A stretch of DNA of 20,285 nt from a virus. The notes beneath the pieces are model-generated. The model saw only the letters and a program-made list of their open reading frames with translations. It ran no database searches and was not told the DNA's origin. Each line of letters starts with the position of its first letter. The stretch's first letter is position 1. The DNA lies in the IMG/VR virus record IMGVR_UViG_3300025697_000184, positions 1 through 20,285 of that record; one strand, 5' to 3'. A program made the translations under genes and the position numbers. This document shows, piece after piece, positions 4,843 through 18,632 of this stretch.

Positions 4843-4955
4843 GGGCGATTTCCTATTATTTGCGCCCGTGGTAGTTCGGCGTTACTACCCTATAAATTAG
4901 CGCCGACTGCCGACCCCACCATGCTTGGTGGGGTCGATTTACTATTTAAAGTAAA
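4843..4955 (-). other. Intergenic cluster of four stem-loops
   Basis: In transcript order: TTTACT/AGTAAA (4938-4955, overlapping the stop of the previous gene); a strong 10-bp stem CGACCCCACC/GGTGGGGTCG with a 6-nt loop (4911-4936); GGTAGT/ACTACC (4870-4889); and GGGCG/CGCCC (4843-4867). TCGGCG (4876-4881) can also pair with CGCCGA (4901-4906), excluding the third stem. No U-tract follows the strong stem, so it is not a standard intrinsic terminator. It may be an mRNA processing or stability element, or an attenuator between capsid and later structural genes. Confidence 0.6.
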
Positions 4956-12466: not shown

Positions 12467-12635
12467 TTATAAATCTTACTGAATCTACATTGTCGCTGTA
12501 TTTAACAATTTCTACTTTTCCCGACTCGCTTATAATTCTCTTTAAACCGCAGTGATAACAAATCGTTATTATCTTTTTTTGACGGCATGGGAATACTATT
12601 GGAACGTGATCGCAATTGTTTGAACCTGCTGGCAT
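12447..12635 (-). CDS. Small Cys-containing hypothetical protein (62 aa from ATG 12635)
   Basis: Not recognised. With the chosen ATG the product is 62 residues: MPAGSNNCDHVPIVFPCRQK, then ITICYHCGLKRI, with an acidic end. Cys8, Cys17, Cys27 and Cys30 (CYHC) and His10 could bind zinc. A longer form from ATG 12731 (94 residues) is possible. It would overlap the previous gene by 38 nt and run through an inverted repeat CTCTCCC/GGGAGAG (12664-12683), and its Shine-Dalgarno spacing is poor. The A/T-rich leader before 12635 matches other starts here. It overlaps terL by 20 nt, so coupling is likely. Confidence 0.55.
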   Translation of the reverse strand: MPAGSNNCDHVPIVFPCRQKKIITICYHCGLKRIISESGKVEIVKYSDNVDSVRFINEEEAK

Positions 12636-12693
12636 AAATTTAATGTTAATAATAATTTTATCCCTCTCCCCATCAAGGGAGAGAGTAAAACGA

Positions 12694-13101
12694 TTATACC
12701 ATTTCTGGCCAACTCCATTCTCTATCGCCATCGCCCTTTTCTACGTTGCGAGCAAAGTATGCATCGCTTGGGCTGATGACATAAAGACCGACGACACTTT
12801 TATCACAGTCCTCTAGTTTATCAATGTTGACTCTCTCAGTAATAATAGCCGCAAACTTAGCGCCCTCTTGGCGGTAAGTTACAATGCGACCAACGCTAGG
12901 GATTTGTACTCTTCCAGCAAGAAGGTCATTTTCAGAAGCTTCTTTAGCCTCTTCCTGTGGTGCTTCATTCGCTGGAGTTTCTTGTGCTGGTCCATCGTCC
13001 ACTCCGGCAGGAGCGCCTTGACCATCTTGTGCATTAACTTCTGCGCCAGTTATTGAAGCCTCTCCAGCCTCATTTGGCACTATGTTGTTTTCTTCTACCA
13101 T
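12694..13101 (-). CDS. Phage protein with acidic tail and conserved C-terminal domain, 135 aa
   Basis: Residues 1-62 are acidic, Ala/Pro/Glu-rich and probably disordered (GAEVNAQDGQGAPAGVDDGP and following). Residues 63-135 are a compact domain: VGRIVTYRQEGAKFAAIITERV, VVGLYVISPSDAYFARNVEKG and a final WSWPEMV. The series 'GRIV.Y...AAI.T..V....L.V..P.....+.V..G......W.WPE' is a pattern I know from small phage proteins of unknown function. A beta-barrel-like fold is likely. It lies between the exonuclease and the gene before terL. No catalytic residues stand out. Confidence 0.7.
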   Translation of the reverse strand: MVEENNIVPNEAGEASITGAEVNAQDGQGAPAGVDDGPAQETPANEAPQEEAKEASENDLLAGRVQIPSVGRIVTYRQEGAKFAAIITERVNIDKLEDCDKSVVGLYVISPSDAYFARNVEKGDGDREWSWPEMV

Positions 13102-13129: not shown

Positions 13130-13681
13130 TCATTTTATCATCTCAAAATAACATCGCATAGTCGCGCGCACGTCCCCCATAGCTGTGTGAGCGTCCTCAA
13201 AGTCCTCGTTAAACAATGATTGATGCAATGCTGCTAACTTCGGCCATCTTCCTCCGGTTATCTTCTGTCCTTTCATCATTGTATCGTAGCGCTTATCCTT
13301 GTGCAATATTTCGTTGAATTGCTCTGAAACAAATCCTAAGTTTAATAAATTGGCTTTAATAATTGACGTGTCAAAATAAATGTTGTGGCCAATTATAGTG
13401 TCGCATCTCTGCGCGTCAAAAAGAAATGCTTTTAATACTGTCTTTTCATCTACTCCATCATCTACTGCCTCGCCTTGTGTTATACCATGTATTTCAAAGG
13501 CTTCCTGCGGCATTTCCCATCCGTTCGGATATATAATATGGTTTTCTTGATCTAACTCCTTGCCTTCGTCAGTAATTACCCATGCCATTTGAACAAGGTG
13601 CGGAAAGTCTTTATAATCTTCCTCCCACTTTAATCCTTTACCGGGAATCCCAGTTGTTTCTATGTCAAAAATTAATTTCAT
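13130..13681 (-). CDS. DnaQ-like 3'-5' exonuclease (DEDDh)
   Basis: A 183-residue single-domain nuclease with all five DEDDh residues visible: Asp6 and Glu8 in IFDIETTG (ExoI), Asp104 in IGHNIYFDTSIIK (ExoII), and His165 and Asp170 in EDAHTAMGDVRAT (ExoIII). FEIHGIT (62-68) is also usual for the DnaQ/epsilon group. It removes nucleotides from 3' ends of DNA or RNA, using two metal ions. No polymerase is present in the window, so it may proofread for a phage or host enzyme, degrade host nucleic acid, or trim DNA or RNA ends. It follows the kinase gene by 18 nt, and the two may act together in end processing. Confidence 0.88.
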   Translation of the reverse strand: MKLIFDIETTGIPGKGLKWEEDYKDFPHLVQMAWVITDEGKELDQENHIIYPNGWEMPQEAFEIHGITQGEAVDDGVDEKTVLKAFLFDAQRCDTIIGHNIYFDTSIIKANLLNLGFVSEQFNEILHKDKRYDTMMKGQKITGGRWPKLAALHQSLFNEDFEDAHTAMGDVRATMRCYFEMIK

Positions 13682-13699
13682 AAATTTTGTATTACTAAA

Positions 13700-14185
13700 T
13701 TAAACATTTATAACTTCGTGTCCTTTTAATAATTTAAATATAGCTTCTCTCTCCTCATCAAATATCTTATTTCTCCGTTCGATTGATTCCCTGCCGACTG
13801 TTCGCTCTCTTAGCATATCTCTGCCCACACACGTTTCAACACCTGAATGCATAACCACTGCTTTTAATTCCGCTCCTAAATCCTCGGCAAGTGTTAACCA
13901 CTTCTGAATATTCCGCGCTCTTGAATTTGTGTTGTCGATTACCAATCCTATACCCGAACCAATAAAAGAAATAGCCAAATGCATTTCTGCCATTCTGACT
14001 TCTTCCTCGTTGCTTTTATTGTAAGCCTCAAAATGCAACATCTCACGCATGCAGTCCTTGTTTAGTCTAACAACTGACTTACAGCCTGTTAGCTTGCTTG
14101 CCTCTCCGCTCTCTATTAATCTTTTTACCTCGGTTGACTTTCCGCTCCCGGGTAAGCCAATCATGACTATAATTCCTTTGTTCAT
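13700..14185 (-). CDS. Polynucleotide kinase-like P-loop ATPase (no phosphatase domain)
   Basis: A 161-residue P-loop kinase. Walker A is GLPGSGKST (residues 10-18). LNKDCMREML (41-50) matches the acceptor-binding 'N+D..R' loop of T4-type 5' polynucleotide kinases, and VIDNTN (82-87) is a conserved strand. RERTVGRESIERR (126-138) looks like the arginine-rich lid. T4 Pnkp has about 300 residues because of a C-terminal phosphatase, which is absent here. It likely phosphorylates 5'-OH ends of RNA or DNA, for example in tRNA or nucleic-acid repair, and it directly follows two tRNA genes. A longer start at 14233 would run through the tRNA, so ATG 14185 is preferred. Confidence 0.8.
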   Translation of the reverse strand: MNKGIIVMIGLPGSGKSTEVKRLIESGEASKLTGCKSVVRLNKDCMREMLHFEAYNKSNEEEVRMAEMHLAISFIGSGIGLVIDNTNSRARNIQKWLTLAEDLGAELKAVVMHSGVETCVGRDMLRERTVGRESIERRNKIFDEEREAIFKLLKGHEVINV

Positions 14186-14206
14186 AAAATTATTATTAAA
14201 TAATTG

Positions 14207-14280
14207 TGGACGGAGCAGGATTCGAACCTGCACCTCCCTGCATAATATACAGGACGTCCTCTCCAGTAGACTGTCCGCCC
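14207..14280 (-). tRNA. tRNA with unusual anticodon loop (apparent ATT)
   Basis: The acceptor stem GGGCGGA/TCCGTCC (one G-U), D-arm GTCT/GGAC, variable GAGGT and T-arm GCAGG-TTCGAAT-CCTGC are all regular. A73 is at 14207 and CCA is not encoded. The anticodon arm is odd. With CCTGT/GCAGG as stem, the loop is ATATTAT, placing T at 33 and ATT at 34-36 (Asn AAU), which bacteria do not normally use. One extra base lies between the D and anticodon stems. A 9-nt loop is the alternative. It may be a degenerate or specialised tRNA. Confidence 0.75.
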
Positions 14281-14442
14281 AATTGCCCCGTGCTAATTTG
14301 CCAATTTATTATTCCCTAAGAGCAGAGAGAGATGACTCTTTAATTGCGCCGAATAAACATTGCAACGGAGCAAGATGACGCACCATCTTCATTGAACATC
14401 AGAGTTCGCGCTCTCCTTTTTCTCTCCTCTTAAAAAACAATG
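14281..14442 (-). other. Spacer between the two tRNAs with small hairpins, no gene
   Basis: There are 162 nt with no credible ORF and no T-loop signature for a third tRNA. It holds two simple inverted repeats: AAGATG-GTGCGT-CATCTT (14372-14389) and AAGAG/CTCTT around 14318-14340. They may be tRNA-processing structures or the relic of a lost tRNA. Confidence 0.5.
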
Positions 14443-14516
14443 TTGCGGGAGTGGGACTCGAACCCACGACCTGTGATGTATGAAACCACCGCTCTAACCA
14501 ACTGAGCTATCCCGCT
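14443..14516 (-). tRNA. tRNA-Met (CAT)
   Basis: It has D-arm GCTC-AGTTGGTTA-GAGC, anticodon stem GTGGT/ATCAC with loop TTCATAC (anticodon CAT), variable AGGTC and T-arm GTGGG-TTCGAGT-CCCAC. The acceptor AGCGGGA/TCCCGCA pairs over six positions but leaves A1 opposite A72. Discriminator A73 is at 14443; CCA is not encoded. The anticodon arm lacks the three G-C pairs typical of initiators, so an elongator Met or a lysidine-type Ile (CAT) tRNA is likely. Confidence 0.88.
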
Positions 14517-14520
14517 TCAT

Positions 14521-14595
14521 AATTAGAATAACGAGCCATTATGCAACCGACTAATCGTCATCAGTCAGCCAATCTGCAATCTCATTATCCTAATT
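14521..14595 (-). ncRNA. 75-nt long hairpin RNA element before the tRNA genes
   Basis: In the minus-strand transcript AATTAGGATAATGAG (14595-14581) pairs with CTCGTTATTCTAATT (14535-14521) along all 15 positions, two of them G-U. On the plus strand those two positions would be A-C mismatches, so the fold is specific to the transcribed strand. The 45-nt interior holds a second stem, TGGCTGACT/AGTCGGTTG, again with several G-U pairs. No U-run follows. Five bases separate it from tRNA-Met. It is probably a processing signal, attenuator or small structured RNA. Confidence 0.6.
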
Positions 14596-14596
14596 A

Positions 14597-14725
14597 TTAA
14601 CTCCTCCCGTATTTTTTAAATCTCCTTAACCTGTTAGCTTTCACTACTGATATTTGTTCTGCAATCCAAGCCTTTGATATTTCGAACGGACTGAAGTATC
14701 GATGTTTATTTCTTTCCCTCTCCAT
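14597..14725 (-). CDS. Small basic protein overlapping the terS end, 42 aa
   Basis: From ATG 14725 the frame encodes 42 residues: MERERNKHRYFSPFEISKAW, then IAEQISVVKANRLRRFKKYG and RS. It overlaps the end of the terminase small subunit-like gene by 20 nt, in the usual style of this genome. The frame is open further upstream (to 14896), but that part lies inside the terS-like gene and reads as an unremarkable Lys/Arg-rich string. One amphipathic helix and a basic tail suggest nucleic-acid binding. I do not recognise a family, and the gene may not be expressed. Confidence 0.45.
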   Translation of the reverse strand: MERERNKHRYFSPFEISKAWIAEQISVVKANRLRRFKKYGRS

Positions 14726-15323
14726 CTTTAACCTCAACTCTCTCACTTTGTAGTTTAACTTCTGTCGTTTGCGCGCTTTTCTCTTGCTTATTAATTTGTT
14801 TGTTAGTACTGACATTTTTTCCTTGGTTATTTTTAATAATCCTGTTATGAATATTTTGTCGCAATCGTTCTTTAAGCTCTTTGCGTAAATCATCATCCTC
14901 TTCGTGAAACTCTCCGTCAGTAGCTCCTAGCTGGTCACTGTTCTCTACTTTTAATGTATCGCCAAATTCTGCTGGTCGTTTACTTTTTAAATAACTTAAT
15001 GAGAAATGTTTATCATTATCAAGTCCTTTTATTACTTCCTGCCTTGCTTTCAAAACTGGCTTTTCCCGTAACCTATCAAATTCTTCTTTTAGCTCCGGTT
15101 TATTTTCTATCCACTTATAATATGTTGATACACTAATCTTAGCATAATAACACGCCTCTTTGATAGTTCCGTCCATTGCAAATATTTGCATTAGCTTTCG
15201 TATCTTGTCATCAGTCATTTTTGTTAGCCCCTCGCTGATATGTTTCTTCCACAATTGTTTCTTGTGGGCCTTTTCCTCCTCCTTGGTTGGTCGGCCATGT
15301 GGGCGCTTTTTTATTTCTACCAT
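14706..15323 (-). CDS. terS: Probable terminase small subunit (HTH DNA-binding)
   Basis: A 205-residue protein. Residues 1-15 carry a basic AT-hook-like KKRPHGRPTKEE. Residues 38-76 form a homeodomain-like helix-turn-helix (MQIFAMDGTIKEACYYAKIS, then VSTYYKWIENKPEL). 'F.RLR.KPVL.ARQ.VIK.LD' (83-102) and 'YLK.K.P.EF' (111-120) follow, the standard pattern of HTH terminase small subunits that recognise pac or cos sites. The C-terminal part is charged and helical (DDDLRKELKERLRQNIHNRI), perhaps for oligomerisation or terL contact. A good Shine-Dalgarno sequence (AGAGGA, 7 nt) precedes the ATG. It lies upstream of terL, separated by the tRNAs and four genes. A non-packaging DNA-binding role cannot be excluded. 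Confidence 0.75.
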   Translation of the reverse strand: MVEIKKRPHGRPTKEEEKAHKKQLWKKHISEGLTKMTDDKIRKLMQIFAMDGTIKEACYYAKISVSTYYKWIENKPELKEEFDRLREKPVLKARQEVIKGLDNDKHFSLSYLKSKRPAEFGDTLKVENSDQLGATDGEFHEEDDDLRKELKERLRQNIHNRIIKNNQGKNVSTNKQINKQEKSAQTTEVKLQSERVEVKDGEGKK

Positions 15324-15684
15324 GTGATTTCCTCTCCATTTTTAATTACTGTTGTGTTCCCGGTGTATTCTAAATATCTTGTAACTATAGCCTATGCTCT
15401 TCTAAAATTTTCAAAGCTTTCAAAATTGACTTTTTCCGTAACCTATTCCGTAACCTATCAAATTCTTCTTTTAGCTCCGGTTTATTTTCTATCCACTTAT
15501 AATTATTTTCTATCCACTTATAATATGTTGATACACTAATCTTAGCATAATAACACGCCTCTTTGATAGTTCCGTCCATTGCAAGTATTTGCATTAGCTT
15601 TCGTATCTTGTCATCAGTCATTGTTGGTCGGCCATGTGGGCGCTTTTTTATTTCTACCATATGATTTCCTCTCCATTTTTAATT
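15046..15684 (-). repeat. Tandem duplication covering the start of the terS-like gene
   Basis: Segment 15046-15347 (302 nt) and segment 15416-15684 (269 nt) are copies. The upstream copy differs by a 66-nt deletion, a 21-nt tandem insertion (15482-15502 repeated at 15503-15523), a 12-nt tandem insertion (15434-15445 repeated at 15446-15457) and about five base changes, all transitions. The arithmetic fits exactly: 302-66+33=269. The unit includes the last codons of the secreted-protein gene and the shared ribosome-binding site. All indels are multiples of three. Confidence 0.95.
15385..15660 (-). CDS. Shortened duplicate of the terS-like protein, 91 aa
   Basis: A 91-residue protein. Residues 1-13 (MVEIKKRPHGRPT) are identical to the full-length neighbour; 22 residues are then missing, and the HTH follows (IRKLMQILAMDGTIKEACYY, AKISVSTYYKWIEN). 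A seven-residue repeat (NYKWIEN) falls at the end of the recognition helix, and a four-residue repeat (NRLR) further on. The C-terminus (KKSILKALKILEEHRL) diverges and lacks the oligomerisation/terL region. The ribosome-binding site is intact and lies inside the end of the secreted-protein gene; the two frames overlap by 7 nt. It could be a decaying copy. The in-frame indels suggest it is still translated, perhaps as a DNA-binding competitor or partner of the full-length protein. Confidence 0.7.
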   Translation of the reverse strand: MVEIKKRPHGRPTMTDDKIRKLMQILAMDGTIKEACYYAKISVSTYYKWIENNYKWIENKPELKEEFDRLRNRLRKKSILKALKILEEHRL

Positions 15685-16522: not shown

Positions 16523-17104
16523 CTATGCTAAGTGTTTACCCTCTACGCCACGTTTTTCTCTGTTCTTTGTTCTTTCGTTAAGCCACATCAATGCTTCCTC
16601 CATTTTAATAATTGCATTTTTATTTTCTCTACAAGTAAAACGAGAGTTTAAATTTTTCAGCCTTTCGATAGATATCTTTAACATTTCTTCGAGAGTTGTA
16701 CCGTTATCATAAGAACCGTCATCGTTTAATTTATAGAAAGTTACTTTTTGAAATTTCTGAGTTCCCTCTTTATCTTCGGGACTAGAAAAATCTCGCTTGA
16801 ATTGCATTAAAGCATATTCATTTACTTCTTCTGTTTTTTTTGGCTCTACCATTTGTTTATGATTATTAAATAAACTAATAAATTTGTCTGCTTCCATACG
16901 ATCGTTCTCTTTTTCTTCTTCATCTAATTCTGTGTAAGGAGTGTTCATTTGTCTTTTTAAAGCTAAATAATAGTTTAAATTAATTATTTTTCCTCCTCCA
17001 TCTTTATCTCTACATTGACTAAACAAATATTTCATCCACCCAGACCATTGCTCATGGCAAAGTGAAGCCAATCTCTCTCTATAAATTTTTTCAACTTCTG
17101 TCAT
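16523..17104 (-). CDS. RyR-like domain fused to Acb2/Tad1-type helical hairpin; possible anti-defence protein
   Basis: A 193-residue protein. Residues 5-80 (RERLASLCHEQWSGWMKYLF, then KRQMNTPYTELDEEEKENDR and EADKFISLF) show the 'A...H..W..W ... PY.EL.E.EK..DR' signature of prokaryotic RyR-type domains. Residues 117-193 have TTLEEMLKISIERLKNL, RFTCRENKNAIIKMEEALMW and LNERTKNREKRGVEGKH. The 'RE...AI.K.EEA.MWLN' helix pair matches the Acb2/Tad1 hairpin family, whose members bind cyclic oligonucleotides or gcADPR and block CBASS or Thoeris signalling. The functional call is inference: the hairpin is also found in phage proteins with no tested role. ATG 17104 (4 nt after groEL, with AGGGA upstream) is preferred over TTG 17122. 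Confidence 0.65.
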   Translation of the reverse strand: MTEVEKIYRERLASLCHEQWSGWMKYLFSQCRDKDGGGKIINLNYYLALKRQMNTPYTELDEEEKENDRMEADKFISLFNNHKQMVEPKKTEEVNEYALMQFKRDFSSPEDKEGTQKFQKVTFYKLNDDGSYDNGTTLEEMLKISIERLKNLNSRFTCRENKNAIIKMEEALMWLNERTKNREKRGVEGKHLA

Positions 17105-17108
17105 ATAT

Positions 17109-18632
17109 TTATTCCCTAACAATTGGCGGTTTCTTCTCTGCCTCTACTAACATGCCACAGCTAGTTACTAATACTGAGGCGATTGATACTGCGCTCTCAA
17201 CTCCTGCTAAAAGCGTTTCTGATGGGTCTATAACGCCAACCTCCATGTATCCTCCTATTTTTCCTGTAACAACGTTCTCAGCTGAGTTGGGCTCTAATTC
17301 TATCTCATCTAATCCCATGTTATCCCTTAATTGTCTTGCTGGATATTGTAATGCCTCATTTAAAAGCTGGCTACTTGTATTAATTCTAGCTAAAGCAAGT
17401 CCTGCTCCACAAACTACTCCGCTGTTGTAAGCCGCCTTTACTGAATTAACCACATCCTCAACTTTATATTTCAACGCTTTCAGTTCATTTTCAGTAGGTG
17501 CGCCTACTTTAATTACAGCGACCTTATTCGTAAACATTGATAATCGTTTTTCTAATTCCTTTTTGATTCTCTCGCTCTCTTCTTCCTGGATATTTTTTCT
17601 CAATGCAAATATTGCAGTATCAATTGACTCTTTATCTCCTTTAGGGTCTACAACTATTGACTCGTCCCGGCGACAGATAAATTTTGCTGCCCGGCCTAAA
17701 TCAGATATTTCTACATTCTCTAGCTTATCGCCTTTTGCCTCGCTAAACATTTTAGCGCCAGTTAGCATTGCTAAATCCTCTAGCCATATTTTATTATTCT
17801 CTCCCTTTGGCGCGTTCACTGCTACTATCAAAAATTTTCCTTGCATCTTATTAATAATAATAGTTGATAGAGCTGACTGTTCTACTCCCTCGGCAATAAT
17901 AACCAATTCTTTTTTATTGTCCTTTGACATTTTCTCCATTAACTTTATAACATCATTGACCTCTGTCATCCGGTAATCAGTTATTAAAATATAAGGCTTT
18001 TCTAAAACAGTTTCCATTCGCTCCGGATTGATTATCATGTACGGACTGATGTATCCGTTTTCTACTTTGATACCGTCAGTCATCTCTGTTGTCGTTTGCA
18101 TTGTTGGTGACCTGTCAATGGTTATCACCCCGTCTTTTCCTATTTTGCTGTAGAGCTCGGCAATCATCTCGGCAATTTTTTCGTTATCAAATGACACCAT
18201 GGCCACTTTTTTTAAATCTTCCTTACTTTCAATCGGAGTAGTCATTTCTTTAATCTGTTTTTTGACATCTTCTAATCCAGCCACTAATTCTTTTTCTACT
18301 TTTCTGCCATCTCGTTTTCTATGAGATACCTGGTCAATAATTGCCTGTAGCATAATTAGTGAGCTGGTAGTTCCATCACCAACTCTGTCATTCGTTCTAA
18401 CCGCTACCTCTCTTATAACTTGAACGATTGCATTCTCGGCTGGGTCTGGTAGTTCAAAGTCACGCGCTATTTGTACGCCGTCATCAACTATCATTCTGTA
18501 TGGAATTTTAGAAATAACTACTTTGTTATTTGCTGGACCATAAGTCGGTTTAATAAAATCAACCATCTGATCAACTGCTGACTTTATAGTTTCAAATGTT
18601 TTGTCCTTAACGATTTTTACTTCTGTACTCAT
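17109..18632 (-). CDS. groEL: Phage GroEL-type chaperonin
   Basis: A 507-residue protein; bacterial GroEL has about 540. ATP site: YGPANNKVV (31-39), DDGVQIARDFEL (Asp51, equivalent to E. coli Asp52), GDGTTSS (85-91, Asp86 equivalent to Asp87) and KVEDVV (Asp393 equivalent to the catalytic Asp398), then SGVVCGAGLAL (404-414). The apical domain has VENGYISPYMIINPE and LVIIAEGVEQSALSTIIINK, but APKGENNK replaces the usual APGFGDRR. The C-terminal GGM-rich tail is missing. The active-site set is complete, so it is probably a working ATPase. Phage chaperonins such as those of phages EL and OBP fold phage proteins. Here it likely serves capsid or other virion proteins together with the GroES two genes upstream. 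Confidence 0.92.
   Translation of the reverse strand: MSTEVKIVKDKTFETIKSAVDQMVDFIKPTYGPANNKVVISKIPYRMIVDDGVQIARDFELPDPAENAIVQVIREVAVRTNDRVGDGTTSSLIMLQAIIDQVSHRKRDGRKVEKELVAGLEDVKKQIKEMTTPIESKEDLKKVAMVSFDNEKIAEMIAELYSKIGKDGVITIDRSPTMQTTTEMTDGIKVENGYISPYMIINPERMETVLEKPYILITDYRMTEVNDVIKLMEKMSKDNKKELVIIAEGVEQSALSTIIINKMQGKFLIVAVNAPKGENNKIWLEDLAMLTGAKMFSEAKGDKLENVEISDLGRAAKFICRRDESIVVDPKGDKESIDTAIFALRKNIQEEESERIKKELEKRLSMFTNKVAVIKVGAPTENELKALKYKVEDVVNSVKAAYNSGVVCGAGLALARINTSSQLLNEALQYPARQLRDNMGLDEIELEPNSAENVVTGKIGGYMEVGVIDPSETLLAGVESAVSIASVLVTSCGMLVEAEKKPPIVRE

Follow-up and report, generated by a model that had tools for sequence, protein, structure and literature searches.

The early intercistronic gaps of phage T7, which hold its RNase III sites, contain irregular, G-U-containing hairpins with internal loops that fold better on the RNA strand. 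In phage T4 the structured RNAs species 1 and species 2 (rnaC and rnaD, 139 and 119 nt) directly abut a tRNA gene in a cluster. According to the annotation rnaD begins 1 nt past tRNA-Arg and rnaC comes next; the fold of rnaC had a z-score of -4.7. In E. coli the 5' leader of tRNA valV forms a stem-loop that is described as inhibiting RNase P and enforcing directional processing of valVW (PMC9433436). For bacterial 16S rRNA a leader-trailer helix is described (PMC10250234).

The locus compared here with these systems lies in a window of 20,285 nucleotides, which is the whole stretch of viral DNA analysed (IMG/VR record IMGVR_UViG_3300025697_000184). The minus strand carries, in this order, GroES, GroEL, a terminase small subunit-like gene, a 99-aa ORF, hairpin 1, tRNA-Met, a spacer and tRNA-Asn, followed by a polynucleotide-kinase-like gene, an exonuclease, the terminase large subunit and the major capsid protein, with ORFs of no assigned identity interspersed. 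The features around the tRNA genes are:

14706-15323, minus strand: terminase small subunit-like protein (PHROG 4102)
14597-14896, minus strand: upstream ORF of 99 aa (P0001), basic and assigned to no family, ending in a stop codon at the base of hairpin 1
14519-14597, minus strand: hairpin 1, a fold prediction, two pairs beyond 14521-14595
14442-14516, minus strand: tRNA-Met (CAU), from ARAGORN and Rfam (63.7 bits)
14308-14441, minus strand: hairpin 2, a structured spacer with a 21-position closing stem, from folding and flank shuffles
14206-14280, minus strand: tRNA-Asn with an unusual AUU anticodon, from ARAGORN and Rfam
13700-14185, minus strand: polynucleotide-kinase-like P-loop protein (PHROG 505, E 1.6e-24), directly downstream of the tRNAs

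Hairpin 1 is composed of a 17-bp lower stem, a 2x6-nt internal loop, 4 bp, a 5-nt bulge, a 10-bp upper stem and a 4-nt loop. The initial annotation had described positions 14521-14595 as a hairpin whose pairing fits the transcribed strand, and it proved right: 15 outer pairs are complete in the minus-strand RNA by means of two G-U pairs, and three of the 10 inner pairs are G-U as well. All five non-Watson-Crick pairs are thus G-U and none is A-C (5:0). When both strands were folded with shuffled controls, as had been suggested, the minus-strand RNA of 14521-14595 reached -29.8 kcal/mol with a z-score of -6.0, which none of 200 dinucleotide shuffles equalled, versus -7.6 kcal/mol and a z-score of -1.0 for the plus strand, equalled by 32 of 200. 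The extended hairpin with its 17-bp stem (14519-14597) had -32.2 kcal/mol. The raw energy alone is not extraordinary for the window as a whole; 80-nt folds of -29.8 kcal/mol or lower occurred in 6 of 40 shuffled windows and folds of -32.2 kcal/mol or lower in 2 of 40. Hairpin 1 is far beyond chance in its local z-score and in its position against the tRNA, where none of 60 flank shuffles matched its stem. A C/D-box reading of the upper stem (CUGA/UGAUGA) was rejected, the letters being mostly paired and the Rfam family sR36 matching at a non-significant E of 8.8.

Elsewhere in the window, positions 4856-4940 between two ORFs had the strongest 80-nt folds on both strands (-34.6 and -41.8 kcal/mol). 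At 12608-12732, where ORFs overlap upstream of the gene for the large terminase, the z-score was -5.1 for the transcribed strand and -1.7 for the other. A 199-aa protein encoded at 16523-17122 matched the Acb2/Tad1 hairpin domain below the Pfam cut-off (E 0.0063).

The mature part of tRNA-Met probably spans 14444-14515, and CCA is not encoded. That the hairpin lies close to the tRNA was confirmed; with its stem two pairs longer, it ends 3 nt ahead of G1 (14515) or 2 nt ahead of the ARAGORN start at 14516. On the other side hairpin 2 sets in 2 nt past the discriminator base. Thus tRNA-Met is flanked by long stems on both sides with only 3 unpaired nucleotides at its 5' and 2 at its 3' end. The closing stem of hairpin 2 has four G-U pairs, one G-G mismatch and no A-C, and no match at its place was found in 60 flank shuffles. 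The overall fold is modest with a z-score of about -2.6 to -2.7 (3 of 200 shuffles equal; opposite strand -2.2 to -2.4), and the evidence from hairpin 2 in its entirety is weaker than that from hairpin 1. The nine transition positions in the stems of both hairpins are all G-U in the transcript, and both stems persisted when the entire 455-nt region was folded. The spacer separating tRNA-Met and tRNA-Asn measures 161 nt; the 5' side of tRNA-Asn has no long stem (best score 22, equalled in 4 of 60 shuffles).

tRNA-Asn itself carries an A at position 34, i.e. AUU in place of GUU, and scored 42 bits with an otherwise good cloverleaf. The polynucleotide-kinase-like gene directly past the tRNA pair might have a role in tRNA end repair. 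In the terminase small subunit region there is a tandem partial duplication (15066-15230 and 15448-15633). Because contig L003 has one copy only, near-identical phages differ by this duplication.

Hairpin 1 shares features with each of the systems named above. Like a T7-type RNase III site it is an irregular intercistronic hairpin with an asymmetric internal loop, and the two are alike in internal loops, G-U pairs and strand bias; T7 sites part mRNAs, whereas hairpin 1 would part an mRNA from a tRNA and has the longer lower stem. Like the valV stem, as far as that is described in PMC9433436, it would occupy the 5' leader ahead of the first of two tRNAs on one transcript, with tRNA-Asn next, but here in a phage and with a second stem past the tRNA. 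Like the T4 species 1/2 RNAs it directly adjoins one of the tRNA genes clustered in a phage; those RNAs lie downstream of their tRNA, hairpin 1 lies upstream, and no sequence relation was found. With the 16S leader-trailer helix and extended-acceptor pre-tRNAs it has in common a long precursor duplex beside a mature RNA end, yet it is a local structure confined to one side of the tRNA and involves no leader-trailer pairing.

Blastn found no homologue of hairpin 1 in 50,697 phage records. A gapped-pattern scan of IMG/VR returned two contigs only (L005 and L178), both nearly perfect matches to the window, and a 27-nt stretch of tRNA-Met as query returned the same two and nothing else. Hairpins 1 and 2 are identical in both contigs, and the sequence of hairpin 1 is conserved no further. 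Relatives were gathered by their capsid and terminase, each alignment holding 80 loci, with overlap. Among terminase matches in MAG contigs (7 loci overall), Candidatus Jorgensenbacteria (69%) and Parcubacteria GWA2_48_9 (52%) came out on top, the others being filed as Ignavibacteriae, Woesearchaeota, Nanoarchaeota, Bacillota and one further bacterium. A phage assigned to TM7 has a capsid 31% identical to the one encoded here. Hence the host is likely to belong to the Patescibacteria, tiny bacteria of a parasitic type, with the reservation that MAG contigs may be misbinned.

Long stems were searched for in the relatives with the same capsid/terminase (116 of 141 sequences after removal of redundant loci, 1.42 Mb). 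With a score that favours G-U pairs, 15 non-coding stems of at least 46 lay on the coding strand versus 4 on the other, and two shuffles of the set yielded no stem of any kind reaching 46. Because this score favours G-U, the scan was rerun with G-U and A-C weighted equally. The 42 non-coding stems scoring at least 30 then held 138 G-U versus 60 A-C (G-U in excess in 29, A-C in 8), and 32 coding stems showed the reverse trend with 78 versus 116, counts that come from sequences related to each other and from a rough coding mask (ORFs of at least 100 aa). Together with the 5:0 of hairpin 1 and the 4:0 of the hairpin 2 closing stem, these figures support the proposal of the initial annotation that folding of an RNA rather than a DNA palindrome was under selection. 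Its interpretation was otherwise incomplete, as the second flanking stem (14308-14441) was overlooked and the function left open.

Two sets of homologous RNAs showed covariation. In a hairpin shared by L080 (2740-2819) and L082 (3088-3172), of 24-27 bp with compensatory changes, 5 of 29 predicted pairs were changed on both sides and none was broken. About 50 nt further downstream come tRNA-Tyr or tRNA-Gln and then an 84-aa ORF, probably GroES. The second RNA, in L106 (310-479), L111 (2819-2963), L124 (2418-2587), L123 (607-787) and, more weakly, L154 (1576-1793), is closed by a long covarying stem of about 21-30 positions, and close to the 3' arm a motif resembling ACCAAATCC is conserved. Among L106, L111, L123 and L124, 14 of 29 predicted pairs were changed on both sides and 9 of 29 were broken or gapped in one sequence. 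A pattern scan of the relatives for this RNA gave 26 stretches, and stem plus motif occurred in two of them (L186 and L198), both duplicate copies of known loci. A strict Rfam scan of seven relatives, a set apart from L106, L111, L123, L124 and L154, found tRNAs only. Because these sequences differ from that of hairpin 1, the covarying sets back the class and not hairpin 1 itself.

A stem was counted as associated with a tRNA or tmRNA gene if it scored at least 30 and ended at most 10 nt upstream, started at most 8 nt downstream or enclosed the gene. Such a stem abuts or encloses 6 of 23 non-identical tRNA/tmRNA predictions in the family, some of them weak ('Stop', one of undetermined type), while shuffles predict 0.12. 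The six are tRNA-Met of the window, on both sides, a tRNA-His (L054), a tmRNA (L119), a tRNA-Phe (L042) and genes in L121 and L153. The case of L121 is weakened by a stem whose pairing is better on the opposite strand. In L153 (957-1073) the acceptor stem of a tRNA-like gene continues into a 31-position stem. Because 17 of the 23 genes lack such a stem, and tRNA-Asn has none on its 5' side, a flanking stem is not required for tRNA maturation. In eight control regions of ordinary phages, T4 included, 8 of 69 genes were associated with 0.68 expected, a count of about six independent stems because one Xanthomonas-phage stem serves three neighbouring tRNAs. In a Vibrio phage a hairpin of 93 nt ends 2 nt ahead of tRNA-Val. 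The difference between 6 of 23 and 8 of 69 is not clear. Given the 8 of 69 in the controls, we rejected the idea that only this phage family has long stems by its tRNAs; the arrangement occurs widely among phages.

Two MAGs with terminase relatives were searched, and both encode RNase III. In the Parcubacteria MAG (G002) a leader-trailer stem scoring at least 35 surrounded 11 of 44 testable tRNAs with an expectation of 0.0; the 44 were left from 51 matches after those near contig or locus ends and duplicates had been dropped. Loci with tRNAs in long leader-trailer helices include L225, L229, L235, L302 and L304. Such stems were found around 1 of 21 tRNAs in the other MAG (G001), 2 of 47 in a sample of the phylum and none of 37 in two MAGs whose records place them in Ignavibacteriae and Bacillota. 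G002 stands out by a strong excess; in the others it is weak.

Taken together, position and precedents point to hairpin 1 as a cis-acting pre-tRNA processing element, an RNase III site and/or an RNase P gate, a tentative reading to which we give a probability of a little under one half (about 0.47). Because the gap of 2-3 nt excludes a separate promoter, hairpin 1 and the tRNA very probably belong to one transcript. This would be a polycistronic mRNA-tRNA transcript of the terminase small subunit/99-aa ORF, hairpin 1, tRNA-Met, hairpin 2, tRNA-Asn and the polynucleotide kinase, in which hairpin 1 would sit in the 5' leader and bracket tRNA-Met together with hairpin 2. RNase III may cut the irregular double-stranded stems and part the mRNA from the tRNA, and/or the stem near the cleavage site may delay RNase P and lead to an ordered release of the tRNAs. 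We favor processing because of the strand-specific fold, the stems on both sides, the 6 of 23 genes in the family, the RNase III genes of the MAGs with terminase relatives, the enclosed tRNAs of one of these MAGs and the T7 and valV precedents; it is weakened by the 17 of 23 genes without a stem, a sequence unconserved beyond identical copies and the modest fold of hairpin 2.

The main alternative, which we consider somewhat unlikely, is a stable small phage RNA in its own right that would be co-transcribed with the tRNAs, freed by tRNA enzymes like T4 species 1/2 and act in trans. Hairpin 1 is tRNA-sized and compactly folded, its 3' end lies almost at the RNase P site, rnaC and rnaD provide a precedent, and the covarying long-stem RNAs away from tRNAs in relatives show that independent RNAs of such build exist in the family. 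However, there is no intrinsic terminator at hairpin 1, since the stem is followed by GAA and the tRNA with no U-tract, and the single terminator call within 13600-15500 is elsewhere, on the plus strand. The best promoter-like site of its own matches 9 of 12 positions, which is the chance level. Neither a conserved loop sequence nor a match to any of 4227 Rfam 15 families was found at gathering or relaxed thresholds, only the two tRNAs reaching gathering, and T4 species 1 has a T-arm-like element that is absent from hairpin 1.

It is improbable that hairpin 1 protects or bounds the 3' end of the terminase/99-aa ORF mRNA, stopping exonucleases after processing, with the tRNA nearby by accident. 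The stem does start where the 99-aa ORF ends in its stop codon, but the missing U-tract and terminator call speak against this role, as do a stem within 3 nt of the tRNA, not merely past the gene, and a second stem across the tRNA. A decayed tRNA or tRNA-like gene with an extended acceptor stem and lost function is very improbable: the hairpin has the length of a tRNA, and tRNAs with extended acceptors occur in relatives (L153 and L042) and in the Parcubacteria MAG, yet neither ARAGORN nor Rfam RF00005, strict or relaxed, recognises a tRNA on 14519-14597, the T-loop is absent as had been noted, and an unconstrained relic is not expected to retain a 17-bp stem with G-U departures only. Equally remote is a DNA palindrome (a protein site or mobile-element ends) or chance, for although stems scoring at least 34 numbered 22-36 per shuffled 1.42 Mb, about 0.4 per 20 kb, and the relatives L112, L121 and L066 contain inverted repeats that are near-perfect and about as good on one strand as on the other, every transition here is G-U on one strand, the tRNA is 3 nt away, z is -6 and the family asymmetry is 138:60.

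Hairpin 1 stands outside every Rfam family, yet the kind of element is already known. Keyword searches of open-licence PMC papers, judged by title or the opening of the abstract, brought up no account of hairpins of this type in Patescibacteria phages or of extended leader-trailer stems in Patescibacteria tRNAs, and a word search of the Patescibacteria-phage papers PMC12911398 and PMC13059738 gave no mention of hairpins. A wider and rather doubtful proposal is that Patescibacteria and their phages mature many tRNAs via double-stranded precursors as a lineage-wide code, of which tRNA-Met of the window would be the phage version. The tRNA would lie inside a long leader-trailer helix or between long wobble-rich hairpins, and a double-strand-specific nuclease would make the first separation.

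With these data an isolated hairpin becomes a testable rule, namely that long strand-specific stems stand next to or around part of the tRNAs in a group of probable Patescibacteria phages, and the same rule touches about one quarter of the tested tRNAs in one Parcubacteria MAG. Unrelated phages share the arrangement, which suggests that an element of phage tRNA arrays has been overlooked. If processing by way of these stems is true, it would explain how tRNAs are released in reduced bacteria and their phages.
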